Below, piece by piece: positions 11,915-52,523 of a DNA stretch of 52,558 nucleotides. The position numbers and the translations under genes are program-made. Origin of the DNA: Deltaproteobacteria bacterium (lineage in GTDB: Bacteria > Myxococcota_C > UBA6777); NCBI GenBank assembly GCA_002731275.1, contig PCBK01000024.1, positions 1 through 52,558 of the forward strand. The letters are read 5' to 3'. The notes beneath the pieces were generated by a model. That model was given only the letters and a program-made list of their open reading frames with translations, searched no databases and had not been told where the DNA came from. Numbering within the stretch: the stretch's first letter is position 1; every line of letters begins with the position of its first letter.

Positions 11915-13231
11915 ATGCGTGTCATCACATCATCACTACTGGTCCTCGGATTGGCCCTCTCTATGAGCCTTGGTTGTGCCGATCCCGGAGAAAAGAAATC
12001 AGAGACAGAGCCCCAGGCGCTCACCTACCACAAGGACGTTCGCCCTCTCCTCGAACAACATTGTACGAGTTGTCACGTAAAAGGCGGCCTCGCGCCCTTC
12101 CCGCTGACGAGTTTTAAGCTGCTCGATACCTACAAAGAGAAAGTCGTCACGTCCGTCAAAAATCGCACCATGCCTCCATGGCACGCGGACAAAGCCTGTG
12201 GTGTGGATTACCAACACGACATCTCACTCAGCGACGCAGAGATCCAGACCTTCACAAAGTGGCTCGAAGAGGGTGCCAAAGAAGGCGATGAAAAAGATTA
12301 CAAAGCCCCCACGGCAAAAGAAAATAGCAACCAATTACCACGCGTTGACCTCAAGTTGAAGATCGAGACGCCTTACAACCAAAAGAAATTTCCCGACGAT
12401 TACCATTGCTTTGTGATGGACTGGCCCCATAAGACGACCAAATACGTCACTGGATTCCACGTCGTCCCAGGCAACGAAGCCATCGTCCACCACGTGATCA
12501 TCTATCTCGTCACACCTGAGCAAGTCGCAGCGTACAGCAAACTCGACGCCGCAGAGGATGGCCCTGGATACACCTGTTATGGTGGCAGCGGTGGACCAAG
12601 TCGTGGCTGGCTCGGCGCATGGGCTCCTGGTGGTCCTGCCGCTCCTTACCCTGAAGGCACAGGTATCAAAATTGAACCAGGCTCCAAGATCGTCATGCAA
12701 GTCCACTACAACTCCTTCACACCAAACCCTGACGCCGACCAGACCGTCGTTGAGTTGATGCTCAGTGACAAAGTCGAAAAGGAAGCGCGCATCATCCCAT
12801 TTACCAACCCGGCGTGGCTCGACTCCAAAAAGATGAAGATCGCCGCAAATGACAAAGAAGCCTTCCACGAATTCTCTGTGAAGCTCGCTGCATACGTGAA
12901 AGCAGAGGTCGATATCCACTCGGCCTCTTTGCACCTTCACACACTCGGTAAGTCAGGAAACATCTTTATCGAGAGAGAGGACGGCTCCGAAGAGTGCCTC
13001 CTCAACATCAAACATTGGGACTTCAACTGGCAACGCTCTTATGGCTTCAAGAAAGTACGAACACTTGGCATGAACGACAAGCTAGGTATTCGATGTACGT
13101 GGGATAACTCGCAGGCGAACCAACCCTACGCCAACGGAAAACAAATCGAATCCAAAGACGTCTACTGGGGTGAAGGGACGACGGATGAGATGTGCCTCGG
13201 TGTCCTCTATGTCACGATGAAGTCTAAATAA
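11915..13231 (+). CDS. Lipoprotein fusing a c-type heme domain to a PHM-like copper monooxygenase fold
   Basis: A 438-residue exported protein with lipobox SLGC (Cys21). Residues 37-120 resemble a cytochrome-c-like domain: heme motif CTSCH (50-54) and Met in TMPPWHAD, with the D-V-R-P-L-L-E-x-H-C spacing seen in planctomycete/myxobacterial heme domains. The rest resembles type II ascorbate-dependent copper monooxygenases: VHHVIIY (His192/193), MQVHYNS (His264) and LHLHTLG. Redox coupling of heme and copper sites is plausible; the substrate is unknown. GGAG lies 13 bases before the ATG. It is the first gene after the two-component pair, 208 bp away, and could be a target of it, but nothing in the sequence proves that. 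Confidence 0.8.
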   Translation: MRVITSSLLVLGLALSMSLGCADPGEKKSETEPQALTYHKDVRPLLEQHCTSCHVKGGLAPFPLTSFKLLDTYKEKVVTSVKNRTMPPWHADKACGVDYQHDISLSDAEIQTFTKWLEEGAKEGDEKDYKAPTAKENSNQLPRVDLKLKIETPYNQKKFPDDYHCFVMDWPHKTTKYVTGFHVVPGNEAIVHHVIIYLVTPEQVAAYSKLDAAEDGPGYTCYGGSGGPSRGWLGAWAPGGPAAPYPEGTGIKIEPGSKIVMQVHYNSFTPNPDADQTVVELMLSDKVEKEARIIPFTNPAWLDSKKMKIAANDKEAFHEFSVKLAAYVKAEVDIHSASLHLHTLGKSGNIFIEREDGSEECLLNIKHWDFNWQRSYGFKKVRTLGMNDKLGIRCTWDNSQANQPYANGKQIESKDVYWGEGTTDEMCLGVLYVTMKSK

Positions 13232-26796: not shown

Positions 26797-29520
26797 TCAG
26801 TTACAGCTCCCTCCACTACAGGCTTTTCCCGCACCACAGGCGTTGTTGCAACCACCGCAGTGATTATTGTCGCTGCTGGTATTCACACACGAGTTACCAC
26901 ACTTGGTCGAGCCACCACCACATTGCAATGAACAGTTCCCCCCACTGCATACTTCGCCTTGCGCGCAACTCCTTCCACAGCTACCGCAGTTTGTGTTGTC
27001 ACTGTCTGTGTTCACACAGCGACTGCCGCATTTGGTCGAGCCGCCACCACATTGCAACGAGCAACGACCTCCGCTACACACTTCGCCATTGTTGCAGCTT
27101 TTTCCACAGCTTCCGCAGTTTGTGTTGTCACTGTCCGTGTTCACACAACGGCTACCACACTTGGTCGAACCACCGCCACATTGCAATTGACAATTCCCAC
27201 CGCTGCAGACTTCACCATTTGTGCATCGACGTCCACAGCGACCACAGTTGTCATTGTCGCTGTTTGTGCTGACACAGAGCGAACCACACTTGGTGCTTCC
27301 ACTTGGGCAGCTGATTTTACAGGAGCCACCATTACAGACTGAACCGCTACCACATGGATTGCTACACCCTCCGCAATGATCGTTATTACTCTGGGTATCA
27401 ACACAGAGCGAACCACACTTGGTGTTTCCTGTTGGGCAGCTGATTTTGCAAGTACCACTTGAGCACGATTGTCCGCTTTGACAGACTTTGTTACAGCCAC
27501 CACAGTGGGCGTTGTCGCTTTGTGTGTTGACACAGGTGCTGTTGCACTTGGTAAGTCCGGACTGACAGGAGAGTGAACATCGACCGTTGTTGCAGACCTC
27601 GCCGCTTGCGCAGTTCGTTCCGCACGCCCCACAGTTGTTGTTATCGCTCTTGGTGTCGACACAACGACCACCACATTTGGTGCTTCCACTTGGACAGCTG
27701 ACCTTGCAAGAGCCCCCACTACAGACCTCACCACTGTTACACGAGACCCCACATCCACCGCAGTGATTGCGATCTGTTTTTTGGTCCACACACTTCCCAC
27801 TACATTTGGAGAGACCGGCCTGACAGGAGAGACCACAGCTTCCGCCTGTGCAGACAGAGCCAGCATTACACACCCGACCACAACCACCACAATGTTGACG
27901 GTCACTTTGTGTGTTGACACAAATACCACCACAATTTCTCAGGCCAGCCTGACAATCAAGAGAGCAATTTTCGCTTTGGCAGACTTCTCCGGATGGGCAT
28001 GAACGGTTACAACTCCCACAATGACGTCGATCAGTGCGCAAATCGACACACGTGTTACCGCACTTTGTCAACCCCGCCTGACAAGACAATTGACATGTTC
28101 CAGCGCTACATACCCGTCCATTCGGACATTGATTATTGCACTTACCACAGTGTTCGCGGTCTGTGTTTGCGTCGATACATTTCCCACCACAGTTGGTCAA
28201 ACCGGATTGGCAGCTCAACACACATGAACCTTTTTGGCAGACTTGCCCGGCTGGACACTGGAAGCCACACTTCCCACAGTTGGTCAGATTGACGAGCAAA
28301 TCGACACAGATCCCGCTGCAGTTGTCGAGTCCAGACTGGCAGGACAACTCACAAGCTCCTGCGATACACTTTTCCCCGGTCGCGCAAGCAGCACCGCACT
28401 TGCCACAGTGCTCATTATCCAGCTTAAGATCGACGCACTTACCACTACAGTTGTTTAAGCCATTTTGACAAGAGACCCCACAGCTCCCGCCACTACAGAC
28501 TTCACCGTCAGGGCACTTGGTGCCACACTTGCCACAATGTTCGCGGTCGTTCTTCAAGTTGACACATACGCCTTCGCAAATACTGAGACCATCCTGGCAA
28601 GAAACAGAGCAATTACCGGCAGCACAGACCTCTCCATCTTTGCACTTTGTACCACAGAGACCACAATGGTTGCGATCTTCGAGTGTGTTGATGCATTTGT
28701 CGCCACAGTTCGCAAGACCACCATATTCGTCACGAGTGCAATCCCTCCAACGTCCGTCAACACAAACTTTTCGCAAGAGCGGGCATGGTTCGCCTGTTTT
28801 GTCACAGTAGGGGTACACGGGATGACCTGAGGTGCGCAGGCTATCATCTTGCATATCCGTGAGGCCGTCACAATCGTTATCTTTTCCGTCACAGACTTCA
28901 CGCGCGCAGAGTTTGCACGACCCCTGCGCGCTCTGCATTAAGTTTGTCACCTGCCCTTTTGGATCGGACATGGAGAAGTCGATAAAGAATGCGCACTCCC
29001 CCAAGCCAGAATCAAAACAGCTATAGCTCGGTGAATCCATCTTTTTACAGATCGATTTAAGGGTCGCGAGATTCTTGGGATTGGTCAGATCGGTCGTTCC
29101 CCAATTTTCCAGGAAGTACAACCGGAAACGAATGTTTTTGACATCCGACTGTGTAGGATACCGAATGACCGCGGTCTCTGTCCGACCGTCCAGTGGAGCC
29201 AAGTGTTTCAACTCACCTCGTGCGTTGATCTCCACGGGAGTGTAGTAATCTTTCCCCTCCTCAATCTCACGGCCATCCCACAACGTCACAATGCAACCAC
29301 GCTCAACACCGTTCTCCCCAAAACCAAAGAGCTCCTGATAAAGACCCGCAGCGATGTAGCTGCCATTTGGATCGTACTTCAGATGCTTGATAGGGCTACA
29401 GTCTCCAGCCTGTAACTCAAAATGTTCGCCTGGCTGCTTTGAACATCCTTCAAAGATCAGGAACAACAATATGGTACAGAGAAGCAAAGACCAACGTAGA
29501 CGTAAAGTGTTTCGAAACAT
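26797..29520 (-). CDS. Giant Cys-rich lipoprotein, 15 tandem 43-residue modules
   Basis: 907 residues. Signal peptide with lipobox-like FEGC (Cys26). Residues 27-205 form a unique domain almost identical to the paralogue at 31088. Then comes a MopE-type motif CDGKDNDCDGLTD near residue 215, a short Cys segment, and 15 tandem modules from about residue 268 to the end. Each full module is 43 residues with eight Cys spaced C-X6-C-X3-C-X9-C-X2-C-X3-C-X5-C-X4-C, typified by CGGGSTKCGSRCVNTDSDN. The last four are almost identical. No enzyme domain; a disulfide-stiffened stalk or adhesin is inferred. It ends exactly at the final module without a sorting tail. Confidence 0.85.
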   Translation of the reverse strand: MFRNTLRLRWSLLLCTILLFLIFEGCSKQPGEHFELQAGDCSPIKHLKYDPNGSYIAAGLYQELFGFGENGVERGCIVTLWDGREIEEGKDYYTPVEINARGELKHLAPLDGRTETAVIRYPTQSDVKNIRFRLYFLENWGTTDLTNPKNLATLKSICKKMDSPSYSCFDSGLGECAFFIDFSMSDPKGQVTNLMQSAQGSCKLCAREVCDGKDNDCDGLTDMQDDSLRTSGHPVYPYCDKTGEPCPLLRKVCVDGRWRDCTRDEYGGLANCGDKCINTLEDRNHCGLCGTKCKDGEVCAAGNCSVSCQDGLSICEGVCVNLKNDREHCGKCGTKCPDGEVCSGGSCGVSCQNGLNNCSGKCVDLKLDNEHCGKCGAACATGEKCIAGACELSCQSGLDNCSGICVDLLVNLTNCGKCGFQCPAGQVCQKGSCVLSCQSGLTNCGGKCIDANTDREHCGKCNNQCPNGRVCSAGTCQLSCQAGLTKCGNTCVDLRTDRRHCGSCNRSCPSGEVCQSENCSLDCQAGLRNCGGICVNTQSDRQHCGGCGRVCNAGSVCTGGSCGLSCQAGLSKCSGKCVDQKTDRNHCGGCGVSCNSGEVCSGGSCKVSCPSGSTKCGGRCVDTKSDNNNCGACGTNCASGEVCNNGRCSLSCQSGLTKCNSTCVNTQSDNAHCGGCNKVCQSGQSCSSGTCKISCPTGNTKCGSLCVDTQSNNDHCGGCSNPCGSGSVCNGGSCKISCPSGSTKCGSLCVSTNSDNDNCGRCGRRCTNGEVCSGGNCQLQCGGGSTKCGSRCVNTDSDNTNCGSCGKSCNNGEVCSGGRCSLQCGGGSTKCGSRCVNTDSDNTNCGSCGRSCAQGEVCSGGNCSLQCGGGSTKCGNSCVNTSSDNNHCGGCNNACGAGKACSGGSCN
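26800..28719 (-). repeat. Tandem 129-bp coding repeats (15 modules)
   Basis: DNA-level tandem array encoding the 43-residue Cys modules. The copies nearest the 3' end of the gene (about 26800-27190) are close to identical at DNA level, while those toward the N-terminus are diverged, suggesting recent expansion at the C-terminal end by slippage or unequal recombination. The module number could vary between strains. Confidence 0.8.
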
Positions 29521-31087: not shown

Positions 31088-34000
31088 TCAGCTACACGTG
31101 CCGGCGTTACAAGTTTGTCCAGATGGACAACATGTGGAACCACAAACTTGCGTTGTAGGACAACAGCTACCACCCAAACAGGTATCACTGCTGCCACAGC
31201 AAGAGGAGCCACAGACTTTCGCGACATCACAACAGCTACCACCAGAACACACCTGCCCACTGCTACAGCATGTCCCGTTACATGAGCGCGCGGCAGGACA
31301 ACACGAACCGCCGATACAAGAACCTGCACAGCAGGCGTTTCCTGTCGCATCACAACAAGAACAACAGTTCGAACCACACTTCGCGGCTCCACCGCTACAC
31401 TGCAAGGCGCAAGAACCGTTGACACAGACACGTCCACCTGTACAAGGTTGACCACAACCACCGCAGTGATTGGGGTTGACTTGTGTATCAACACACTGCC
31501 CACTACAGTTTGTACTGTTTGAGGAACACTGCAAGATACAAGTGCCACCGACACAGCTCTCTCCCGTTGAACATTGCGTCGTGCAAGAGCCGCAATGATT
31601 GGGGTCGACCTGTGTGTCGAAGCAGCTCGAACCACACTGTGTTAGGTTTGTGCCACAGTTTGCGACACAGGTTCCACTCGCGCACTTTTGTCCAGACGCA
31701 CAAACAGTCCCACAACCTCCACAGTGGTTGGGGTTGGCGTCTGTATCCACACAGACGGAGCCACATTTGGTGTTCCCTGTGGGACAGCTAATCTGACAGA
31801 CACCAGAGACACAGCGCTCACCAGCTTTACAGGCAGTCCCACATCCACCACAGTTCGCATTGTCAGAAGTTTGATCGACGCACTTGCTGCCACACTTGGT
31901 GAGACCTGTCTGGCAGGACAAGGAACACGAGCCAGCATTACAAACCTCGCCAGCTTGGCAGGTCGTACCACATCCACCACAGTGGTTGGGGTTGCTTTGT
32001 GTATTGACACATGAGTTGTTGCACTTTGTGCTTCCTGCAGGACAACTCACATCACACGCACCGTTGTTGCAAACCTCTCCGCTCTTACAGCTACTGTTAC
32101 AGCCATTACAATGGAAGCGATCGGTCTTTGTATTCACACAGGTCCCGCCACAATTGGTGAGCCCTGTTTGGCAACTGAGTGAGCAGGCGCCGTTGACACA
32201 AACTTGTCCGGATGGACAGGCGATCCCACAACCACCACAGTGGTCGCGATCGGTCTTCTGATTGACGCAAGTGCTGTTACATTTGGAGAGCCCGCTAGGA
32301 CAAGAGAGTCCACATTTTCCGTTGACACAAACCTGCCCAGAAGGACACACAATCCCACACGCATTGCAATTAAGTCGATCATTTTGCAAATTGCTGCACA
32401 CGCCACCGCAGTTGGTGAGACCAGCTTGACAAGAGACAGAGCATTTTTCGCTGCTGCAGATCTCACCAGTGGGACAGGCCTTGTTACACTTTCCGCAGTG
32501 TCGACGGTCTGTGTTAAGGTCGACACAAGTGCTTCCACACTCCGTCAAACCAGCTTGGCAAGAGAGCGCGCAGGAGCCATTACTGCAGACCTGACCTCCT
32601 AAACACTTGGCGTTACAACGATTACAATGATCTCGATCGCTTTTAAGATTGACACAGATGCCACCACAGTTTGTGAGACCTGCCTGACATGTCAGTTGAC
32701 ATGTACCACCAACACACGCCTGTCCAGAGGCACACTTGGTCCCACATCCCCCACAGTTGGAATTATCTGTCTTCAAATCGACACAGATGCTGCTACAATT
32801 TGTCAGACCAGATTGACAGGAGAGGCCACATGTACCGTTGTTACAGACCTCACCAGAGGCACATTTTTTGTTGCAAGCACCACAATGTAATGAATAGGTC
32901 TTCAAATCAACACAAGTCCCACCACAGTTCGTCAAGCCAGTTTGGCAATCCAGGCGACAAGCACCGTTGACACATTTTTGCCCAGAAGGACACTGTTGAC
33001 CGCACTTTCCACAGTTAAAAGCGTCCTCTTTTGTGTCCACACACTTTCCGTTACAGTTATCCAGGCCAGTTTGACAATCGAGCTTACAGCTTCCGTTGTT
33101 GCAGACACGTCCAGGAGGACACTTTGTGTTGCATGTCCCGCAATTGTCGCGGTCTGTTTTGGTGTTGACACACACGCCATTGCACTGTGTCAAGCTGTTT
33201 TGGCATGAAACATCACACTTACCGGCGCTACAGACCTCACCAGAGGGACATTTCTTTTGGCATTGACCGCAATGGTCGCGGTCTGTGTTGATGTTGACAC
33301 AAAGTCCACCACAATCGTTGAGACCCGTTTGGCAACTAAGCTGACACTTTCCGGCGATACATTGCTCACCAGAGAGGCAGCGGTTTCCACAAGTTCCGCA
33401 ATTGAGAACGTCTGTCTGCATGTTGACACAGACATTGGCACACTTGGTCAATCCAGCCTGACAGGAGACCCCACACGAACCAGAGCTACAGACCTGACCT
33501 TCTGCACACTTGCCATCACACGCGCCACAGTTTTCGCGGTCATTTTGTAAGTTGACACAGACTCCAGAACAGTTTGTGAGTCCTTTTTGACAGGAGAGGT
33601 CACATTTCCCGTTGTTACAGACCTGTCCAGAGGGACACTTATTGCCACAAGTTCCACAGTTGTTGCGGTCTTTGAGGACATTTGCGCATTCGTTATTGCA
33701 GTTGGTTTGTCCGCCGTATTGGTCCCGATCGCAATCGTTCCAGATCCCATCAGCGCACGTCTTACGCACGAGCGGACAGACCTCACCAGTTTTGTCACAG
33801 TAGGGGAAAATCGGGTGAGCAGCGGTCCGCAAGCTGTCATCTTGGGTGTCCGCTTTACCATCACAGTCGTTGTCTTTCCCGTCGCATACTTCGCGTGCAC
33901 AGAGCTTACATGAGCCCTGTGTGCTCTGCATCAAGTTGGTCACTTTTCCGCTGGGATCGGACATAAAGAAGTCGATGAAGAAAGAACACTCCCCTAAGCC

Positions 34001-34531
34001 AGAGTCAAAGCAGCTATAGCTCGGTGAATCCATCTTTTTACAGATCGATTTAAGGGTCGCGAGATTCTTGGGGTTGGTCAGATCGGTCGTGCCCCAATTT
34101 TCCAGGAAGTACAATCGGAAACGAATGTTTTTGACATCCGACTGCGTAGGATACCGAATGACCGCGGTCTCTGTCCGACCGTCCAGCGGAGCCAAGTGTT
34201 TCAGCTCACCTCGTGCGTTGATCTCCACGGGGGTTACATAGTCTTTCCCCTCTTCAACCTCACGACCATCCCACAACGTCACAATACAACCACGCTCAAC
34301 CCCCTTTTCACCGGGGCCAAAGAGCCCCTGATAGAGCTGCGCGCTCGCATAACTACCGCTCGGGTCATACTTCAAATATTTGACAGGGTTACAATCTCCG
34401 GCTTTCAACTCAAAGTGCTCACTTGGCTGTCTTGAACAACCTTCGGAGAGTACCAAAAATAAGATCACACCGAGCAATAAAAGCCAACGAAAACGTATTG
34501 AATAGGTAGAAAACATTCGACTCATGTTCAT
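31088..34531 (-). CDS. Giant Cys-rich lipoprotein, 18 tandem modules and CC-rich tail
   Basis: About 1147 residues from ATG 34531; ATGs at 34525 and 34516 are equally possible, the last aligning best with the paralogue. Signal peptide with lipobox-like SEGC. The following domain matches the 26797 paralogue over long identical stretches (for example NIRFRLYFLENWGTTDLTN), with a MopE-type CDGKDNDCDGKAD. Then 18 modules of 43 residues with the same eight-Cys spacing, and a distinct tail of about 100 residues rich in CC pairs (GSCCPAARSCNGTCCSSG type), absent from the paralogue. It is likely a long disulfide-bonded surface fibre with a different tip. No enzymatic domain is visible. Confidence 0.85.
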   Translation of the reverse strand: MNMSRMFSTYSIRFRWLLLLGVILFLVLSEGCSRQPSEHFELKAGDCNPVKYLKYDPSGSYASAQLYQGLFGPGEKGVERGCIVTLWDGREVEEGKDYVTPVEINARGELKHLAPLDGRTETAVIRYPTQSDVKNIRFRLYFLENWGTTDLTNPKNLATLKSICKKMDSPSYSCFDSGLGECSFFIDFFMSDPSGKVTNLMQSTQGSCKLCAREVCDGKDNDCDGKADTQDDSLRTAAHPIFPYCDKTGEVCPLVRKTCADGIWNDCDRDQYGGQTNCNNECANVLKDRNNCGTCGNKCPSGQVCNNGKCDLSCQKGLTNCSGVCVNLQNDRENCGACDGKCAEGQVCSSGSCGVSCQAGLTKCANVCVNMQTDVLNCGTCGNRCLSGEQCIAGKCQLSCQTGLNDCGGLCVNINTDRDHCGQCQKKCPSGEVCSAGKCDVSCQNSLTQCNGVCVNTKTDRDNCGTCNTKCPPGRVCNNGSCKLDCQTGLDNCNGKCVDTKEDAFNCGKCGQQCPSGQKCVNGACRLDCQTGLTNCGGTCVDLKTYSLHCGACNKKCASGEVCNNGTCGLSCQSGLTNCSSICVDLKTDNSNCGGCGTKCASGQACVGGTCQLTCQAGLTNCGGICVNLKSDRDHCNRCNAKCLGGQVCSNGSCALSCQAGLTECGSTCVDLNTDRRHCGKCNKACPTGEICSSEKCSVSCQAGLTNCGGVCSNLQNDRLNCNACGIVCPSGQVCVNGKCGLSCPSGLSKCNSTCVNQKTDRDHCGGCGIACPSGQVCVNGACSLSCQTGLTNCGGTCVNTKTDRFHCNGCNSSCKSGEVCNNGACDVSCPAGSTKCNNSCVNTQSNPNHCGGCGTTCQAGEVCNAGSCSLSCQTGLTKCGSKCVDQTSDNANCGGCGTACKAGERCVSGVCQISCPTGNTKCGSVCVDTDANPNHCGGCGTVCASGQKCASGTCVANCGTNLTQCGSSCFDTQVDPNHCGSCTTQCSTGESCVGGTCILQCSSNSTNCSGQCVDTQVNPNHCGGCGQPCTGGRVCVNGSCALQCSGGAAKCGSNCCSCCDATGNACCAGSCIGGSCCPAARSCNGTCCSSGQVCSGGSCCDVAKVCGSSCCGSSDTCLGGSCCPTTQVCGSTCCPSGQTCNAGTCS
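31403..33712 (-). repeat. Tandem 129-bp coding repeats (18 modules)
   Basis: Array encoding the 43-residue Cys modules of the 31088 gene. The modules are more diverged from one another than the last four in the paralogue, so this array looks older. Confidence 0.75.
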
Positions 34532-34558
34532 CCGGTTCCCAATGTTGAATGGACCTGT

Positions 34559-34573
34559 ATATTCTAAGAATAT
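34559..34573. promoter_or_regulatory. Palindrome upstream of the Cys-rich gene
   Basis: Perfect palindrome ATATTCT-A-AGAATAT, 28-43 bp before the possible starts of the 31088 gene. On the minus strand it contains TAGAAT, a -10-like hexamer, so it may be an operator overlapping a promoter. A second palindrome, ACAATCGATTGT, lies at 34592-34603. Confidence 0.3.
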
Positions 34574-34864
34574 CGAAACGTTACAACCAGCACAATCGAT
34601 TGTCAAGCGAGAGACATGCCTCCCACGTATGTACAATGAACTCTGGCCCCGTAGACATCACCAAAGACAAGTCCGGTTTACACAATAAGTGACCTGTACT
34701 TGTCTTGCTTTGTCTCACCGAACCACGTCACGACGACACTCGTCACACGATGACACTGCCTGGACACCATGAGCAGCCACAAGGAACAGGTTGCGTTTCC
34801 TGACAGAAAGGAATATGAGTACATAGATTCGATTTTTTGGATGCCACAGACAAAGGACTTTGAC

Positions 34865-35674: not shown

Positions 35675-37843
35675 TCAAGGACGCGTTTTGAGCTTGCGCC
35701 ATAACGTCGTGCGGCTGATACCGAGGCGCTGTGCGGCGAGCTGTTGGTTATTGTCCGTCAACATGAGCACCTTCTCGATGAGCTTCCTCTCAAGTGTTGC
35801 GAGCGGATTTTCCGTGTGTAACGCCTCTGTGACGAGATCGTCTTTTGGGGCAAAGAGTTCCGGAGGAAGATGCTCTGCTTCGATGACAGCCCCCTGACAG
35901 AGGACAAAAGCGTGCTCAAGCATGTTCTCCAATTGCCGAACGTTGCCGGGATAATCGAACGCAAGTAACAAACGCAACGCTTCTTCGGAGATACGCTGGA
36001 TCGTCTTGCGTGTCCGAGGGTTGAGCTTGCTGATAAAGGTCTTGAGCAGCAGAGGGATATCATCTTTACGCGCTCGCAACGGAGGGACACGAAGTTGAAC
36101 GACGTTCAATCGATAGTAAAGATCCTCCCGAAAACGCCCTTGGGCAACTTCGCGCTGAAGATCTCGGTGGGTCGCTGCGATCACACGCACATCAATACGA
36201 CGTGTGAGACTGGAGCCCACACGTTCGAATTCTCCCTCTTGGAGAACCCGTAGCAGCTTGACCTGTGTCGCCGGAGACAACTCGCCAATTTCATCGAGAA
36301 AGATCGTACCACCATCGGCGAGCTCGAAGCGCCCTCTCCTTTCGTTGACAGCCCCAGTGAAAGCACCTTTCTCATGACCAAACCACTCCGTTTCGAGCAG
36401 ACTCTCACTGAGGGCACCACAATTGACAGAGATCATCGGCTTATCATGTCGAGCACTTTGTGCGTGGATGGCACGTGCGAACAATTCTTTTCCAGTCCCA
36501 CTCTCTCCAGTGATCAGAACAGTCGTCGGAAGAGGCGCGACCTTCTTTACAAGGTCGTAGAGCGCTAGCATTGCCGCGCTTTTCCCAACGATCGTCCCCA
36601 ACGAATGCTTTTGAGAGAGTTGCTCATTCAGCGCTTTGACCTCTGAGAGGTTGCGCACAAAACCCATCAACGATTGTTGTCCTTGCTGCTCGATCAACGT
36701 CAACCGCAGCTCGATCGGCAGCGGAGAGTGGTCACGTCTCAACAGTGTCGTCTCGAAGATCCTCGAAGCCCCAACGCTCTCTAATTGTCCGACTTCCTCC
36801 AAAAAGGCCTGTTGTGCTTTAGGGGCGATGAGAGACAGTAACGTGCGCGCTTTGAGTGTAGCGACGTCACTCTGAAGCCACCCCGCAAGATTCGGATGGA
36901 AGGTGTCAAAGGCCACATCAGGAGACCGACACACAAACACCCCCTCGTGCAACATCTCAAACAACAACCTGTATCGCTCGTTACTCTGCGCAAGATCACT
37001 GACCCAATGACCCTTTTCGATGGAGATGGCAATCTCTCCTGCGATCTGCTTGAGCATACCAACATGTCTCTCTTTGAACGCGCTCTTCTTTGTGCTGCTA
37101 AAGAAGAGCACCCCTATCGGACTTCCTTGTACAGACAAAGGCAAGGTCAAGTTGGAACGCATCCCTTCATCGATGAGCAGACGGGTCCAAAGTGACGGAC
37201 GACGAGCCTGTATCGACTTCAGATCGTCTAGAATACGCACCGCTCCCTTTTCCAACAGGCGCTTCAAACTTGACCCTTGTATCGACGCAGAGAAACCATC
37301 CCCCAACAAAATGTGCCTCGTAGAATGTGTTTGCACCTGTATTAACTTGTCCGTCTCTCCCTCAAGCAACGCAATCCCTATCCGATCGTGGGGTACAAGT
37401 GTTCGCAAGCCTTCCGCGAGGACCTCTGTCACCTGCTTGAGCGTCTTTGCCACCTGTAGTGCCTCAAGCAAGGCATCAAGAGGAGCCTTCTCTCCATCTT
37501 CCATGTCCTCCTCTCTCGAAGGACTGACGTCTTCCACCCGGACCTCGATCATCCCCTCCCTGACACGGACAGGATATGTTTTGAGTGGCGGCGTCATCAC
37601 AGGACAACCTGTCTTCAGATTGTATTGCCAATCATGCCAGGGACACTTCACAACCTCCCCCACAACCTCTCCTTGTGACAAAGGGCCCCCTTGGTGCGGA
37701 CAGCTGTTGTCCGTCACTCGAAACCCACCCTCCACACGGAACACCGCCAACTGCAGGTCCTCCAATGTGAACATCTTGCTTTGACCTTGCGCCAAAGAGG
37801 ACTCCCTCGCCAATGACACCCAACGCTCCATTTGTTGCTCCAT
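35675..37843 (-). CDS. Rieske-domain sigma-54-dependent activator (Rieske-GAF-PAS-AAA+-Fis)
   Basis: 722 residues. Residues 5-105 form a Rieske [2Fe-2S] domain with all four ligands: Cys48 and His50 in SCPHQGG, Cys67 and His70 in KCPWHDW. A GAF domain (about 125-280) and a PAS-like domain (about 288-400) follow. The sigma-54 interaction AAA+ domain (about 415-645) has Walker A GESGTGKE (446-453), the GAFTGA loop (493-498) and Walker B FLDEIG. A Fis-type HTH (about 685-720, [21 protein letters not shown]) ends the protein. It should thus activate sigma-54 promoters in response to redox or a bound small molecule. ATG 37831, six bases after GGAG, is an alternative start. Two palindromes and a sigma-54 promoter lie in its divergent upstream region. 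Confidence 0.93.
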
Positions 37844-37850
37844 GACGCTG

Positions 37851-37872
37851 CATGTTTCAAATATGAAACATG
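37851..37872. promoter_or_regulatory. Palindromic regulator site 1 (candidate UAS/autoregulatory site)
   Basis: Perfect inverted repeat: 9-bp arms CATGTTTCA and TGAAACATG around AATA. It lies 8-20 bp upstream of the regulator's possible starts, so occupancy should affect the regulator's own expression. The same core recurs at 37950-37969, centre to centre 98 bp. Arms of TGT...ACA type with a short spacer are usual for enhancer sites of sigma-54 activators. Confidence 0.8.
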
Positions 37873-37949
37873 ATTCAAAATTGCAATAAACAAACTTTAT
37901 CTCTGCAACAGTAAGTTATTTTCATACAGAATTCTACTTTAGCAAACAC

Positions 37950-37969
37950 ATGTTTCAATTATGAAACAT
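37950..37969. promoter_or_regulatory. Palindromic regulator site 2 (candidate UAS)
   Basis: Perfect inverted repeat: 8-bp arms ATGTTTCA and TGAAACAT around ATTA, the same core as site 1. Its centre is about 100 bp upstream of the -24 element of the candidate sigma-54 promoter, a normal distance for an enhancer acting through DNA looping. Confidence 0.82.
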
Positions 37970-38056
37970 TCAGCGCAAACACACCCCGACCTGCCCCAGC
38001 AACAAAAACACACGACATTTTGAACACTTAGCACCCCCAATAATACATTCGCAAAG

Positions 38057-38073
38057 CTGGAACATACTTTGCT
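38057..38073 (+). promoter_or_regulatory. Sigma-54 (-24/-12) promoter of the SDR-queA-like operon
   Basis: CTGGAACATACTTTGCT matches the sigma-54 consensus YTGGCACGNNNNTTGCW at 11 of 13 defined positions, with the invariant GG (38059-38060) and GC (38071-38072) exactly 10 bases apart. Transcription should begin near 38084, about 50 bases before the SDR start. It points away from the sigma-54 activator gene and toward the SDR gene. Confidence 0.8.
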
Positions 38074-38135
38074 GAAGAGAGGGCACACAAGGCCAACAGG
38101 GCCAACACACAATGACAACACAAAGAGGTATAGAG

Positions 38136-38861
38136 ATGAACGTAACACAAGAAAAACATTGGAAAGATTCGAGATGGTTGATCACTGGAGGTTCATCGGG
38201 CTTGGGATTGGCATTGGCGCGAGAGCTCGACAGATTGGGCGCAAGGGTTGTGGTGGTCGCACGCAACAAGGGTCGCTTACAGGAGGCGATTCAGGGCAGC
38301 AACATTCACCCTATCACAGCGGACGTCTCGGCAAAGGACGATGTATACAGAGTGATCGGTGAGGCGAGTGCATTTTTGGGCGGCATTGACGTGCTGGTGA
38401 ACAACGCGAGCGCTTTGGGTCCCACCCCCTTACGATTGCTTTCGGATACGGAGTGCGAAGATCTTTCTTTGGTTTTTGAGACCAACCTGATGGGTCCCTT
38501 CCGTTGGACAAAAGCAGCACTCTCGTCGATGTTACTGAGGCAAAAAGGGCTGATCATCAACATCTCAAGTGATGCCGCCCAGAGCGCATACCCAACGTGG
38601 GGCCCCTATAGCGCATCCAAGGCCGCGCTCGACCATTTGACCCGAGTCTGGCAACAAGAACTCAACGCTGAAGGGATCCAATTTGTCGCAGTGGATCCTG
38701 GAGATATGGACACGCCCATGCACCTCGCGGCCATCCCTGACGCCGATCGTACAGCGCTTTATAAGCCCGATGAGGTCGCGACTGACTTGTTGCACTTTCT
38801 GACCACTCTCCCCAAAGAACAACCAGTGCGATATAGCGCAAGTGAGTGGAGGACATCATGA
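38136..38861 (+). CDS. Short-chain dehydrogenase/reductase (SDR)
   Basis: A 241-residue classical SDR: NAD(P)-binding TGGSSGLG near the N-terminus, NNAS, the catalytic Ser in INISSDAA, and YSASK (Tyr/Lys). VDPGDMDTPMH follows the usual P-G motif. ATG 38136 has GAGG seven bases upstream; an ATG at 38112 lacks one. The substrate is unknown. It is first in the operon driven by the sigma-54 promoter, and its TGA overlaps the ATG of the queA-like gene (ATGA), so translation of the two is coupled. It is therefore probably functionally tied to that gene and to the Rieske regulator. Confidence 0.9.
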   Translation: MNVTQEKHWKDSRWLITGGSSGLGLALARELDRLGARVVVVARNKGRLQEAIQGSNIHPITADVSAKDDVYRVIGEASAFLGGIDVLVNNASALGPTPLRLLSDTECEDLSLVFETNLMGPFRWTKAALSSMLLRQKGLIINISSDAAQSAYPTWGPYSASKAALDHLTRVWQQELNAEGIQFVAVDPGDMDTPMHLAAIPDADRTALYKPDEVATDLLHFLTTLPKEQPVRYSASEWRTS

Positions 38862-39910
38862 GTCATCAATTCACCCCATTAACACGAAGCAAGCGACGAA
38901 AAGATGCCCGTTTGCTGGTACTGGAAGGCAGAACACAGCACATTCACCACCGCCATATCGAACATGTCGGTGATTTTCTCAATAAAGGTGATCTACTTGT
39001 TGTAAACGACGCCGCGACGCTTCCTTCGAGCTTCCTAGGGACACACTTACCAAGTGGTAGGCAGATCGAACTTCGTCTCGCATCGAACCTTGGGACGACA
39101 CCTGATGACGTCTCGGAGTGGCTGGCTGTTGTCTTTGGCGAAGGTGATTGGCACATGAAGACAGAAGATCGCCCTGCTCCCCCCCACTGTAGAGCAGGGG
39201 AAAAATTGCACTTTGGAGACGGATTGATTGGTACATTAATGATGGTATCGACACAATCCCCCCGCCTTGTCTCAGTGCGTTTTCGCGCAAAGGACGGCGA
39301 GCTGTGGCGCGCGCTGTACAAGCACGGTAAGCCGATCCAGTACTCGTACCACGAAGAGCCGTTGGAGGTGTGGGATCAGCAGACGATCTTCTCAGGCCCT
39401 CCGATCGCTGTCGAGCCACCTTCTTCGGGCTTCCATTTACGCTGGGAGTGGTTACTCTCCCTGCGCCAAAAGGGCGTACAAATCGCGCCAATCAGCCATG
39501 CGACAGGGCTCTCCACCACAGGAGATGAAGACCTCGACAAACGACTCCCTTTTCCCGAACGTTCCTATATACCGAAATCGACAGCGGTAACCATCAAGCG
39601 AACAAAAGAGACAGGTCGCCATGTTTTTGCCCTTGGTACAGGCGTCACTCGCGCTCTTGAGAGCGCAGTGTTACCAGACCTCTCAGGCGTAACCTCTGGT
39701 GCCTTCGTCAGTCGCGTCAAGTTACACCCAGACTTTCCACGCTTCATCGTCGATGGGTTGTTTACGGGATTACACGACGCAGGCTCCAGTCATATCGAAC
39801 TTCTCAACAGCTTCGTCTCCACTTCGTTGCTCGAACAAGGCTACCAACAAGCCCAGCAGTTAGGGTACTATGGCCACGAATATGGTGACACGTGCCTGAT
39901 CACCGCGTGA
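38858..39910 (+). CDS. Divergent QueA-like protein (S-adenosylmethionine:tRNA ribosyltransferase-isomerase family)
   Basis: 350 residues from ATG 38858 (GGAGG five bases upstream). Overall layout is that of QueA, the epoxyqueuosine-precursor synthase: LLVVNDAATLPSSFLG, ELRLA, FALGTGVTRALESAVL and the C-terminal YGHEYGDTCLI. Motifs that are near-invariant in true QueA are altered: AAPTAGLHF reads AVEPPSSGFHL, HVGxGTFxPV reads SHATGLSTTGD, and DALLTNFHLP reads DGLFTGLHDAG. It is therefore a paralogous subfamily, perhaps with another substrate, rather than the queuosine enzyme itself. No tgt or other queuosine gene is in the window. Confidence 0.8.
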   Translation: MSHQFTPLTRSKRRKDARLLVLEGRTQHIHHRHIEHVGDFLNKGDLLVVNDAATLPSSFLGTHLPSGRQIELRLASNLGTTPDDVSEWLAVVFGEGDWHMKTEDRPAPPHCRAGEKLHFGDGLIGTLMMVSTQSPRLVSVRFRAKDGELWRALYKHGKPIQYSYHEEPLEVWDQQTIFSGPPIAVEPPSSGFHLRWEWLLSLRQKGVQIAPISHATGLSTTGDEDLDKRLPFPERSYIPKSTAVTIKRTKETGRHVFALGTGVTRALESAVLPDLSGVTSGAFVSRVKLHPDFPRFIVDGLFTGLHDAGSSHIELLNSFVSTSLLEQGYQQAQQLGYYGHEYGDTCLITA

Positions 39911-47918: not shown

Positions 47919-50744
47919 TTACGTTTTATCGGGCTCATCGCGAGAGACGACTCTCACACCGATTCGTTCTGTCCCCATTAACGCGTTAAACCGGAAAGCA
48001 CATCGCACACCACGACCGTGATAACGATAACAACCACCTCGTAATGCCCGGTGAACACGCAAGCCTTCTCTTCCAAGCTCGGAGACAAAGTGAGGCTCCT
48101 TTGGCGCCTCCCCCATCACTTCGAGCCAGTTGATGTTCCATTCATCTGCACACCACTCCCAGACGTTACCACTACAGTCGAGCAAGCCGTACGGACTCAT
48201 ACCATCGGGGTAGTGAGCGACAGGTGTCGTATCTTGGAGCTTGGCCCCCAGAAAATTGCACAGACCGTTATGTGGTTTTTGATTGCCCCAAGGCCAGATC
48301 TGTCCCTCCGTTCCCCGCGCGGCTTTCTCCCACTGTGCCTCTGTCGGCAAGGTCAACTCGTAAAATGAGCAGAACGCCTGTACATCCTCGTAAGAGACGC
48401 ATACAACAGGGTGCTCCAAGCGCTCTTCATCAGGTTGACCGTTCACCCAGTGCTGGAGATAATCAGGGCTCTCACAGTGGTAACCGCTCTCTTCGATAAA
48501 TTTGAGCCAAACTCTATTGGTCAACGGTGTCCGCGCGATCCAATACGTCTCCAACTCCACCTCTCTCTGAGGTGCCTCATTTCGGTATGCCAACATGTCA
48601 TTTTCTTTTGACCCCATCGTAAAGACACCACCGGGAATCTCCACAAAACGCAGCAAAGGCGTCCCATCTTTTGCGCGGAAAATAGACTCACGCACAGGGT
48701 CAGGAACAGCTGGAAGATCGAGTGCATTCCAGATCTTTTTGGGTTGTGGCTTCTCTGCAGGTTTAGAAGAAGTTGTAGCGGCAAGAGGGAGGACACTCTC
48801 CGCCTCCCACTCAACAGCCGAGTGAACGGGTTCGATCGCGCGTTTCTTTTTGGAGGGTGTTAGAGATAAGGAGTCCAGCGAGATCATCTCCTCGTACTCA
48901 AGCAACAGCTGTGGTGTCACAGTCTTCTCGACGACCTGCTTCTCAGGTGATGTGACTGTTGGCTTCTCCACATCTCCACCAGAGCGCGATGGATGGACGA
49001 GTGATAGCGCTGAAGGGTAACGCATCACAGGCTGCTCATCACGCACACTGGCCGCCTCTTCTCCTTGCTTAGCGTGACCTCTTTCCTCTCGCTCTTGAAC
49101 CCCTCCAACACGACGAAGAATCTTTTCTCGAACCGCATTCAGCTCACGTGTTTGCTGAAAATCCATAGGCTCAGGCTGTGGCGGTACAGAAGGTTCAGAT
49201 ATCGCATCTCGCGGAGCAGCCTCCTCCCCCTTCTCTATTTGCTGATACTGCTCGACCAAAACGTCCAGCGCGGACTCGTCTTTGATACCCCAATAAGAAG
49301 TGTTGAAACCTGTATCTTTCGAAGAATGAGTGGAGCGCTCCCTAAACATACGAGCGTGCTGTTCTGAACGCTCCTGCAAAGATATAGGGAGCAAGATCTC
49401 CCGCAACGCGCTCCAAAACGCCCCAGGTGTTTGATAGCGCCGATGTGGCTTTGGATCCATCGCACGCAGGACAACTTCATCGACGGCCTTCGTCCACAAC
49501 ATACACAATTGACTGGGTGGAAAGATCGAACCAATCGGAAGCTCTGTCGTGAACAATTGATACGCGATGACCCCGAGAGAGAACACATCAACGGACTTGC
49601 TCACCTCATCACCACCACGCAATTGTTCGGGGGCCATGTAATAGACAAAGCCACTAAACCCTGTGTGTCGACTTACAGACTCGCCTTCGAGGACTTTGGC
49701 GATACCAAAGTCCATCAGCTTTACGCGACCATCACGTGTGATCATAATATTGGAAGGCTTAAGGTCTCGGTGGATGACACCTTGTGCGTGTGCGTACTCG
49801 AGGATGGGGATCAGCTCATCAAACAACTTGATCACAGATTTCACAGAGAGAGAAGGGAAGATCCCCCGCTCTGCAGAGCGCTCCATCAAGAGGTCAAGGG
49901 TGACACCTTCGACATACTCCATCGTAAAAAAGAGAAAACCGGAGTTTGGATCTTGTTCGAGGGTATATGTTCTGACGATACCGGGATGTGTCAGGCGCTC
50001 GTTCGCTCGTAATTCTTGAAGAAACCGCGTGCGGATTTCGTCGAACTGTGCGAGGTGTGGGTGGATCAACTTGAGGGCATAGCGGCTCTCGCGTACGGTG
50101 TCGTAACACAAGAACACCTGCCCCATCCCTCCTTGGCCCAAGAGTTTTTCCAGGTAGTACCGCCCCAACAGATACTGTTTAACAGAGAGTTCTCGTTGCT
50201 GGTGAGATGGCTGCGCGTGGAAGGTCGAAGGCAAATAGCCAGAAGAAGAACCTCTTGGAGGTTGTGAGGGCACATGCGAAGGTTGCGAAGGTACACGAGA
50301 AGGTTTGGCTTCACCAAACACATTGGACAAACGACTCTTTACGAGTTGTTCGCTGGAGTGAAAATCATCCTCGGAGAGCAGACCAGCGTGAAAAAAGTTT
50401 TGAAGATCGCGCAGGACCTGTTCGATCTCCTCTCGCTCGTTGATAAGCGCCTGTGCGTTACTCTGCCCAAGTCCCCCACCGGGTTCGAGTTCGAGAGCAC
50501 CAACGAGTCCACTTTGTTGTGCAGAGACACTCACAGGAAGGGGGGTCATGGATTCCAGCAGCGCGAGGATCTCAGCAGAGGAAGGAGAGCTTGGTACGGG
50601 AGCCCTGGTATGCCCTCCATCCATTTGGTACATCTCTTTGAGCAGGATCTTTTTGGACTCCTGAAACTCATCTTCGGAGAGCACACCGGTCTGGTAAAAT
50701 GAAACCAGCTCTTTGAGGACTTGGAAGATATCTTCACGATTCAT
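47919..50744 (-). CDS. Ser/Thr protein kinase fused to FGE-sulfatase-like domain
   Basis: 941 residues. Two SHOCT-like short helical motifs (residues 5-36, FYQTGVLSEDEFQESKKILL; and 104-136, FFHAGLLSEDDF) precede a Pro/Ser-rich linker. The kinase domain (about 194-455) has GQGGMG (203-208), Lys225, HRDLKPSN (325-332), DFG (345-347) and APE. A long low-complexity region (455-700) leads to a C-terminal FGE/SUMF1-type domain: IPGGVFTMGSKEND, LPTEAQWEKAARGTEG, GNVWEWCAD, RALRGGCYRYHGRG. The usual RGGS is RGGC here, and the paired catalytic Cys of true formylglycine generators are not evident, so binding rather than catalysis is likely, as in other kinase-FGE fusions. No transmembrane helix is seen. 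Confidence 0.92.
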   Translation of the reverse strand: MNREDIFQVLKELVSFYQTGVLSEDEFQESKKILLKEMYQMDGGHTRAPVPSSPSSAEILALLESMTPLPVSVSAQQSGLVGALELEPGGGLGQSNAQALINEREEIEQVLRDLQNFFHAGLLSEDDFHSSEQLVKSRLSNVFGEAKPSRVPSQPSHVPSQPPRGSSSGYLPSTFHAQPSHQQRELSVKQYLLGRYYLEKLLGQGGMGQVFLCYDTVRESRYALKLIHPHLAQFDEIRTRFLQELRANERLTHPGIVRTYTLEQDPNSGFLFFTMEYVEGVTLDLLMERSAERGIFPSLSVKSVIKLFDELIPILEYAHAQGVIHRDLKPSNIMITRDGRVKLMDFGIAKVLEGESVSRHTGFSGFVYYMAPEQLRGGDEVSKSVDVFSLGVIAYQLFTTELPIGSIFPPSQLCMLWTKAVDEVVLRAMDPKPHRRYQTPGAFWSALREILLPISLQERSEQHARMFRERSTHSSKDTGFNTSYWGIKDESALDVLVEQYQQIEKGEEAAPRDAISEPSVPPQPEPMDFQQTRELNAVREKILRRVGGVQEREERGHAKQGEEAASVRDEQPVMRYPSALSLVHPSRSGGDVEKPTVTSPEKQVVEKTVTPQLLLEYEEMISLDSLSLTPSKKKRAIEPVHSAVEWEAESVLPLAATTSSKPAEKPQPKKIWNALDLPAVPDPVRESIFRAKDGTPLLRFVEIPGGVFTMGSKENDMLAYRNEAPQREVELETYWIARTPLTNRVWLKFIEESGYHCESPDYLQHWVNGQPDEERLEHPVVCVSYEDVQAFCSFYELTLPTEAQWEKAARGTEGQIWPWGNQKPHNGLCNFLGAKLQDTTPVAHYPDGMSPYGLLDCSGNVWEWCADEWNINWLEVMGEAPKEPHFVSELGREGLRVHRALRGGCYRYHGRGVRCAFRFNALMGTERIGVRVVSRDEPDKT

Positions 50745-50894: not shown

Positions 50895-52523
50895 TCAGGA
50901 GGGTTCTTCAACAGGCGCTTCGTCCTTCAAGCTCGCATGTTCTTTTAACAGGATGACACGCGCTCCGAGGTGATCGGTGCGTTCGGAGGCATTGAACCGG
51001 AAGGCACATCGCACGCCACGGCCGTGGTAACGAAAGCATCCTCCACGTATGGAGTACACACCTGAATCATCTGAAAACACAGGGTCCTTGGCGTCCTCTC
51101 CGAGCTCTTCGAGCCAGTTGATGCTCCAGTTGTCCGCGCACCACTCCCAAACATTACCGCTACAATCGAGCAGACCGTAAGGACTCGCCCCACCGAGGAA
51201 GGAAGCAACAGGCGTGGTGTCGTGGAGCCCCGAGCCGAGGAAGTTACACAGGCCGTTATGTGGTTTTTGATTGCCCCAAGGCCAGATCTGTCCCTCCGTT
51301 CCCCGCGCGGCTTTCTCCCACTGTGCCTCTGTCGGCAAGGCCAACTCGTAAAATGAGCAGAACGCCTGTACATCTTCGTACGAGATGTACACAACAGGGT
51401 GCTCAAGACGATCCAGCCGGGGACGTCCTCCCCTCCAGTGTTGAAGGTAATCGGGGCTCTCACAGTGATAGCCGCTCTCTTCGATAAATTTGAGCCAGAC
51501 TCTATTGGTCAACGGTGTCCGCGCAATCCAGTACGTCTCCAACTCCACTTCTCTTTGGGGTTGCTCGTTGTGGTAGGCCAACGAGTCCACTTTGCGAGAG
51601 CCCATCAAAAAAGTGCCCTCAGGCACTTTTGTCATGCGAAAGAGTGGCGTGCCATCTTTTGCGTGGAAGAACTTCTCTTCGAGGTGAGAAGCGACAGGCG
51701 GCAGATCGAGCGCGGAGCGCTGCAAGTCACGCAGTGTTGGACCGACAGGTTCGGCATCAATACGCCCTTGCAAGGATTCATCGATCTCAAGCTCCAACTC
51801 TTGGGCGAGAGGTGTCTCCGGCTTATTCATCAGAGGAAGATCGAGTCCATCAACAGAAGGACTTAAGAGTGCGTCTGACGAGGGCTCTTGCTTTTTTTTG
51901 GGTTTGTTTTGTTTGGGCTTCACTTGATCCAATGAGATCATCTCATCGCCGAGGTCGACCATTTGGGAAGAGAGCACAGGATCGGAGAGTGTTTGGATCT
52001 GGCCAGAGATGCGTTTGATCGGATTCTTATCGAGCGAGAGTGTCGGGTGAGGAGAATACGAAGATGCCCGAAAAGATCGAAATACAGGAAGATTTGGAGA
52101 CGCGAGTCGCTCCGGAAGTTCACCACTTTGACTCTCTTGCTCGGGTTCGGGTGCAGAGTGAACGGTCTTGACTTCACCGGTGAATGTGGGCTGCCCTGGA
52201 ACCATCGTCGGTGGTCCTTCGACAGCCGGTAGATCGGTCGCAGAGCGAAACACCTCAGCCAGCTCATCGCCAGCTTCGTACGCGTCGACCTTAGGCACCC
52301 TTGGTATCTCGGGCGAGGTTTCCTTTTCACCGAATGGATGGGCGTGTGAGAGACTGTCAATATCTCTCGTGGAGAGTTGGAACTCCGGAAGTTCGCGAGT
52401 CTGGTACTTTGGATCGAGCGAGTCGATCAAGGGCAACAGCGCAAATTCACTCTCCATGGCCCAAAGTTTACTGAGCTCTAAACGTCTCGACGCGTCTAGT
52501 AGCACCAGACTAACAACATGCAT
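50895..52523 (-). CDS. FGE-sulfatase-like protein, kinase-less paralogue
   Basis: 542 residues from ATG 52523, which directly follows an in-frame TGA; ATG 52457 is an alternative start. The N-terminal 290 residues are disordered and Pro/Ser/Glu-rich, with DEMISLDQVKPKQNKPKKKQ resembling the linker of the neighbour (YEEMISLDSLSLTPSKKK). The C-terminal 240 residues are an FGE-like domain (MGSRKVDSLAYHNEQPQREVE ... RGGCFRYHGRGVRCAFRFNAS) close to that of the kinase gene, including identical DNA. No kinase or transmembrane segment. It looks like a duplication of the linker-FGE half of the 47919 gene. It lies 150 bp upstream of it on the same strand. Confidence 0.88.
   Translation of the reverse strand: MHVVSLVLLDASRRLELSKLWAMESEFALLPLIDSLDPKYQTRELPEFQLSTRDIDSLSHAHPFGEKETSPEIPRVPKVDAYEAGDELAEVFRSATDLPAVEGPPTMVPGQPTFTGEVKTVHSAPEPEQESQSGELPERLASPNLPVFRSFRASSYSPHPTLSLDKNPIKRISGQIQTLSDPVLSSQMVDLGDEMISLDQVKPKQNKPKKKQEPSSDALLSPSVDGLDLPLMNKPETPLAQELELEIDESLQGRIDAEPVGPTLRDLQRSALDLPPVASHLEEKFFHAKDGTPLFRMTKVPEGTFLMGSRKVDSLAYHNEQPQREVELETYWIARTPLTNRVWLKFIEESGYHCESPDYLQHWRGGRPRLDRLEHPVVYISYEDVQAFCSFYELALPTEAQWEKAARGTEGQIWPWGNQKPHNGLCNFLGSGLHDTTPVASFLGGASPYGLLDCSGNVWEWCADNWSINWLEELGEDAKDPVFSDDSGVYSIRGGCFRYHGRGVRCAFRFNASERTDHLGARVILLKEHASLKDEAPVEEPS
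51253..51340 (-). repeat. 88-bp identical tract shared by the two FGE-like genes (second copy 48265-48352)
   Basis: 88 consecutive identical bases, third codon positions included, within the FGE-like domains of the two neighbouring genes. High but lower identity continues beyond, starting with a single mismatch and then 33 more identical bases. This suggests gene conversion or recent duplication. Confidence 0.85.

Follow-up and report, generated by a model that had tools for sequence, protein, structure and literature searches.

A sigma-54 activator headed by a Rieske domain: a probable redox sensor beside an operon whose relatives are linked to soxR

Oxygenases and respiratory complexes are the known settings of Rieske clusters, which act there as electron carriers, and the potential of a Cys2His2 Rieske cluster can be tuned by protonation of its ligands. 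Among Rieske proteins, the ferredoxin ThnA3 is known to regulate transcription, acting in trans. In the ThnA3/ThnY system of tetralin degradation, the redox state of this ferredoxin governs transcription (PMC4814904). Iron-sulfur clusters are also associated with VnfA, AnfA and NifA. These are, like the protein described here, sigma-54 activators with a GAF sensor, and their cysteine motifs are known or presumed to bind Fe-S clusters, leading to oxygen sensitivity (PMC7294313). A further point of reference is SoxR; in S. maltophilia, SoxR has been reported to repress its own gene from a site next to the start codon (PMC4411124). The locus considered here encodes a sigma-54 activator with a Rieske domain of its own, divergent from an operon whose homologues elsewhere are accompanied by soxR.

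The activator and its domains

The window (the whole stretch of DNA analysed, 52,558 nucleotides) is one entire contig of a 10.75-Mb draft genome that is 94.7% complete and 5.5% contaminated. Open reading frame and Pfam analysis showed the activator to be a single continuous frame with the following features.

35675 to 37843, minus strand: gene for the Rieske-GAF-PAS-AAA+-HTH_8 sigma-54 activator (enhancer-binding protein), 722 amino acids, ATG start
37580 to 37822, minus strand: Rieske [2Fe-2S] domain, residues 8-88 (PF00355)
37694 to 37702, minus strand: Rieske box 1, C48-P-H50
37634 to 37645, minus strand: Rieske box 2, C67-P-W-H70
37016 to 37444, minus strand: GAF domain (GAF_2, PF13185), residues 134-276, E=3.6e-12 in Pfam
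36644 to 36994, minus strand: PAS domain, residues 284-400, weak in Pfam, assigned from alignment, model and a match to DhaR(N)
35840 to 36592, minus strand: AAA+ sigma-54 interaction domain and lid, residues 418-668, GAFTGA at 493-498
35687 to 35803, minus strand: Fis-type HTH_8 (PF02954), residues 681-719, E=5.8e-13 in Pfam

The first-pass annotation had placed this frame correctly, without naming its strand, which is minus. Its domain assignment was right throughout (Rieske, GAF, AAA+ and HTH by Pfam, PAS by alignment, model and DhaR(N)), and the four Rieske ligands it had listed (Cys48, His50, Cys67, His70) are all present in the sequence, as is GAFTGA. The true start may instead be a second in-frame ATG, Met5 at 37831, whose Shine-Dalgarno spacing (GGAG-N6-ATG) is better. 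Values of GC and GC3 differ little between the two sides of the Rieske/GAF junction and the adjoining genes, and because of this even composition a chimeric assembly of the frame appears unlikely.

The Rieske, GAF_2, Sigma54_activat, lid and HTH_8 matches all exceed their Pfam cut-offs. Sigma54_activat (PF00158) covers residues 418-584 with E=1.3e-72, and AAA_lid_14 follows at 590-668. The AAA+ motifs are intact, with Walker A GESGTGKE (446), GAFTGA (493) and Walker B GGTIFLDE (511). An AAA+ domain with both Walker motifs and GAFTGA, together with a C-terminal Fis-type HTH, is what defines a sigma-54 enhancer-binding protein, and by every feature of its sequence that was tested the protein is a sigma-54 activator. 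The top NCBIfam match is NifA, in the AAA+ region only, with 389.4 bits against an equivalog cut-off of 528.85. An identity as NifA or VnfA was rejected since the score is below the cut-off and the cluster lies in a different domain.

The Rieske match (E=1.5e-17) scores 63.7 bits against a cut-off of 20.3, and the protein has both the C-x-H and the C-x2-H box (C48/H50 and C67/H70) in a Rieske fold. The nearest sequences are ferredoxins of ring-hydroxylating dioxygenases (NdoA, 2qpz, E=9e-14 with phmmer). The model of the domain is confident (pLDDT about 91-97, residues 11-80), and modelled residues 5-104 match NdoA, BphA3 and BphF-type ferredoxins with Z 16.6-18.2 and rmsd about 1.0-1.3 A (for 2qpz, Z 18.2 and rmsd 1.2 A). 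Judged from sequence and model, the domain would bind a [2Fe-2S] cluster. The disulfide cysteine pair of the bc1/b6f type is absent from its boxes (CPHQGG / CPWH); because of this the domain is expected to be of the low-potential, dioxygenase-ferredoxin type. Dioxygenase Rieske ferredoxins have potentials near -110 to -170 mV (PMC4814904), so that a cluster of this kind is expected to be in the reduced form in the cytoplasm of an unstressed cell and to become oxidised under redox stress. The source genome encodes other Rieske proteins as well, among them a stand-alone one (C84) that is 41% identical.

The PAS domain is below the Pfam cut-off (best E=0.017). The region aligns with clear PAS domains, and residues 301-415 are modelled as a confident mixed alpha/beta structure (pLDDT about 89-97). 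In a fold search the GAF-PAS part of the model matched E. coli DhaR(N), a sigma-54-family regulator. GAF followed by PAS ahead of AAA+ is the order found in DhaR and other GAF-PAS activators, with PAS here assigned by alignment and fold rather than by the Pfam cut-off. A fold search with the entire sensory model returned mostly phytochromes; this was put down to the GAF and PAS folds, and photosensing was rejected. In a genome survey that scored the top candidates of each genome, the nearest GAF relatives attached to an activator body were those of two Rieske-free GAF-AAA-HTH activators (L053 and L055), at 37-38% identity. Also among the closest GAF domains are those of a tandem GAF-GAF adenylate/guanylate cyclase (L050, 1293-3380).

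The activator is a singleton from one draft genome. About 580 genomes (best candidates per genome) contained no second protein with both Rieske and sigma-54 domains; among 386 diverse genomes and 195 of one further phylum, Rieske domains were fused to many partners but never to sigma-54 domains. The larger surveys scored the best 5-12 candidates per genome in a collection of genomes, and their outcome holds among the matches listed; further members of the architecture may exist elsewhere. No such fusion was found in the other four genomes of the window's phylum (five in the collection), where, as in the larger sets, Rieske or GAF matches came separately. A scan of genome contigs for full-length relatives gave an AAA-domain match only, and among fetched stretches with long open Rieske frames there was no other stop-free frame that held both the Rieske boxes and GAFTG. 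One plasmid tblastn match that seemed to span the full sensory region proved to be two adjacent genes, an AndAb ferredoxin and an oxidoreductase. The open-access literature that pairs Rieske with sigma-54, regulator or sensor terms yielded no such protein. The architecture search across bacteria that the first-pass annotation had suggested has been run in those genomes without a second case, and its remark that such an activator was not known to have been studied fits the literature found.

Rieske domains occur in other fusions. A Rieske ferredoxin domain joined to a thiamine-pyrophosphate-type enzyme (L045, L080, L081, L082, L142, L143, L148) recurs in several lineages and on haloarchaeal plasmids, as seen by eye in the sequences and from plasmid annotation. 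A widespread family of about 530-620 amino acids begins with a Rieske domain, which is followed by a long C-terminal region (L046, L047, L077-L079, L083, L084, L086, L087, L089-L093, L141, L146, L147).

The divergent intergenic region and the adjoining operon

The activator gene and the SDR gene are separated by a 292-bp, A+T-rich intergenic region (37844-38135) from which both are divergently oriented. This region and the operon beyond it have the following features.

37853 to 37870, no strand: candidate activator site 1, TGTTTCAAATATGAAACA within the 22-bp CATGTTTCAAATATGAAACATG, 10 bp upstream of the activator ATG
37951 to 37968, no strand: candidate activator site 2, TGTTTCAATTATGAAACA, 98 bp from site 1
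37931 to 37958, minus strand: sigma-70-like promoter of the activator gene, TTGAAA-N16-TAGAAT, its -35 overlapping site 2
38058 to 38073, plus strand: candidate sigma-54 -24/-12 promoter, TGGAACATACTTTGCT, reading into the SDR gene
38136 to 38861, plus strand: SDR-family oxidoreductase, likely the first target gene; likely start 38136 with GAGG before it, and an upstream in-frame ATG at 38112
38846 to 39910, plus strand: QueA-like SAM:tRNA ribosyltransferase-isomerase paralogue, overlapping the SDR gene

Both sites are the 18-bp perfect 7-4-7 palindrome TGTTTCAN4TGAAACA. The 10.75-Mb genome has only one exact copy besides these two, and two copies of any one such palindrome were seen in none of 3000 Markov intergenic sequences. 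A wider palindrome regulon was considered and rejected, as the sole other exact site (on contig C51) had no sigma-54 promoter by eye and was judged to be chance. The putative promoter at 38058-38073 is the only exact match in the window to TGGMACN5TTGCW, with exact -24/-12 spacing; this relaxed pattern, which was picked after the site had been seen, arises by chance in 18 of 20000 Markov intergenic sequences. The site has two mismatches to the strict pattern TGGCACGN4TTGCW, a level at which the window holds fewer matches than shuffled sequences do. The palindromes are centred at about -222 (site 1) and -124 (site 2) from the predicted sigma-54 start, positions typical of sigma-54 activator sites. 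The locus thus has, at a target, both the upstream palindromes (as candidate sites) and the -24/-12 promoter that go with an enhancer-binding protein. RpoN would be present in the cell, to judge from 35 activator-like matches in the source genome.

The sigma-70-like promoter of the activator gene is weak (one found against 0.6 expected in shuffles) and is the only candidate. Because site 1 lies 10 bp before the activator's ATG and site 2 covers its -35, the activator probably represses its own gene through both.

The second gene of the operon is, on its sequence, not the housekeeping QueA. The canonical QueA of the source genome is encoded separately (C3:114100-115140) and scores 430 bits, against 168 for the paralogue. 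Close relatives of the QueA-like protein are rare: they were found in one of 385 other genomes surveyed (G369) and on Rhizobium plasmids. No close homologue of either the window's SDR gene or its QueA-like gene was found in genomes of the same phylum.

In five annotated Rhizobium records an SDR gene is followed by a QueA-like gene, with soxR divergent beside the pair, and BLAST found the same soxR-divergent arrangement in three more Rhizobium records and in the distant genome G369. A SoxR box (TCAAGTTNACTTGA) lies between soxR and the SDR gene in all eight Rhizobium records and in G369. In one Nonomuraea record the pair is present and soxR was not found beside it. The window's SDR is 49-51% identical to the SoxR-linked SDRs and scores 207-226 bits to these, whereas no other SDR in the comparison exceeds 105 bits. 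For the QueA-like protein the identity is about 40%. Two of the SoxR proteins were tested, and they pass TIGR01950 with 178 and 193 bits (cut-off 116.9). Clusters of soxR, SDR and QueA-like genes with a SoxR box were recorded at L151 2740-5104, L156 1738-4023, L157 1786-4071, L162 1738-4047 and L155 6972-9307; these derive from Rhizobium plasmids and one distant genome. The SoxR literature found does not describe the pair as a SoxR target; this soxR-linked pair, apparently undescribed, would be a target of redox stress.

By analogy with these homologous pairs, whose adjacency to soxR and SoxR boxes suggest redox control, the operon in the window is probably redox-responsive. The window itself contains no SoxR box. 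No SoxR-type protein was found in the source draft genome, where the best match (45.6 bits) is another MerR protein without the cluster cysteines; given the draft quality of the genome, SoxR could also be missing from the assembly.

Other parts of the window encode proteins of separate interest. Two large cysteine-rich repeat proteins near each other (26797-29520 and 31088-34636) have 12 and 18 Stig1 matches, and the latter also scores 548 bits to an MXAN_6577-like model. At 11915-13231 are both domains of a copper type II ascorbate-dependent monooxygenase, an enzyme best known from animals. The gene at 47919-50744 encodes a fusion of a protein kinase with an FGE-sulfatase (formylglycine-generating-like) domain and adjoins a gene for a second FGE-sulfatase domain protein at 50895-52523.

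Proposed mechanism and alternative readings

The activator probably represents a type of redox sensor that has not been described. In the reading we favour, and consider reasonably likely to be correct, it is a dedicated sensor in which the state of the Rieske cluster sets sigma-54 transcription of the divergent SDR/QueA-like operon. It would be a one-component activator acting locally, with the Rieske [2Fe-2S] domain as its sensor, and by their position both intergenic palindromes (37853-37870 and 37951-37968) would be its binding sites. The cluster would change state, most likely on oxidation by redox-cycling compounds or oxygen, and GAF and PAS would relay the change to the AAA+ ring. The ring would then remodel sigma-54 RNA polymerase at 38058-38073, and transcription of the SDR operon would follow; bound at sites 1 and 2, the activator would probably also repress its own gene. 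In this scheme oxidation rather than reduction would be the activating change, and redox-cycling compounds or oxygen the presumed signal. The earlier proposal of a redox-sensing sigma-54 activator gains support, by analogy, from the SoxR-linked homologues of the adjoining operon and their SoxR boxes, and its activator part also from the two candidate sites and putative sigma-54 promoter in the intergenic region. The operon context makes the redox hypothesis a specific one.

In the source genome the activator would hold the place of SoxR on this operon, since the homologous pair is divergent from soxR elsewhere and no SoxR was found in this genome. We give about an even chance to the fuller proposal that the Rieske cluster is a cis-acting redox sensor of a sigma-54 activator that has replaced SoxR on the same operon, with two unrelated [2Fe-2S] regulators having converged. 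If true, this would be a clear case of regulator replacement, in which two unrelated [2Fe-2S] proteins working with different sigma factors control one operon, and the fusion would add a Cys2His2 cluster to the list of biological Fe-S sensors.

A different division of labour is possible within the same protein, in which the true signal might come in by way of GAF or PAS. In one such reading GAF binds the true effector, as in FhlA-type activators, and the Rieske domain acts as a gate that sets the threshold by the redox state of the cell. Such a two-input sensor is consistent with the related GAF domains that work without a Rieske domain in L053 and L055, and with DhaR(N), whose comparable GAF-PAS arrangement has been solved in complex with DhaK. 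The SoxR-linked relatives of the operon suggest instead that redox alone suffices as a signal, and we know of no ligand for this GAF family; we regard the two-input sensor as rather unlikely.

The Rieske domain could also work as in ThnA3/ThnY, taking electrons from a ferredoxin reductase and reporting on an electron sink, the substrate of an oxygenase. ThnA3 regulates the thn genes through electrons passed to ThnY (PMC4814904), the closest folds of the Rieske domain are dioxygenase ferredoxins, and the genome has its other Rieske proteins, including C84. What makes this improbable is the setting: no Rieske oxygenase or ferredoxin reductase occurs among the window proteins scanned, and the adjoining operon is the SDR/QueA-like pair.

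There is a similarly small chance that the palindromes belong to another regulator, such as a repressor of the SDR operon, and that the activator acts elsewhere. Site and activator are paired by position, and the C51 palindrome is upstream of a minus-strand gene for an Xre-type-like regulator (by eye), where no sigma-54 site was noticed. Against this, no other regulator gene adjoins the intergenic region, distances of -124 and -222 from a sigma-54 promoter are usual for an activator, and this locus has two of the genome's three exact sites.

It is very improbable that the Rieske domain lacks a cluster and survives as a relic with a structural or docking role, leaving the response to GAF and PAS only: although the architecture is a singleton and cluster binding is read from sequence and model, the domain retains its four ligands and both loop motifs, and the ferredoxin-like model is confident. 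The idea that assembly has wrongly joined a Rieske gene and an activator gene into one frame could appeal to the draft state of the genome and to the want of a second example in the genomes surveyed. It is hardly credible given the continuous frame, the even GC3 at the junction and a position away from the contig ends; the palindromes and promoters, too, are placed as expected for a gene that begins with the Rieske domain.

Comparison with known systems

The favoured reading, a Rieske redox sensor built into a sigma-54 activator, combines parts that are known separately. Residues 5-104 have the fold and ligands of dioxygenase Rieske ferredoxins such as NdoA, CarAc and BphF, which are stand-alone electron carriers and not sensors. 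The GAF(-PAS)-AAA+-HTH body is that of DhaR and of FhlA-like GAF-AAA-HTH activators; unlike the window's activator, none of those seen has a Rieske domain.

The nearest Fe-S activators are VnfA and AnfA, and the nearest regulatory Rieske protein is ThnA3. In VnfA, AnfA and NifA the cluster cysteines are in the GAF domain or an interdomain linker, whereas the window's activator has a separate Rieske head with Cys2His2 ligation. ThnA3 is a catabolic ferredoxin in its own right and exerts its effect by way of ThnY and ThnR, whereas here the Rieske domain is fused to the activator.

An identity as SoxR was rejected, as Pfam finds no MerR domain in the activator, and the likeness is in functional place only. 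That likeness has two parts. SoxR is a [2Fe-2S] redox switch divergent from the homologous SDR/QueA-like operon in rhizobia and G369, and the activator probably represses itself from a site next to its start codon, as is reported for S. maltophilia soxR (PMC4411124). In construction the two differ: SoxR is a MerR-type protein with an all-cysteine cluster that acts between the -35 and -10 motifs, whereas the activator would pair a Rieske cluster with a sigma-54 domain and recognise a different palindrome.
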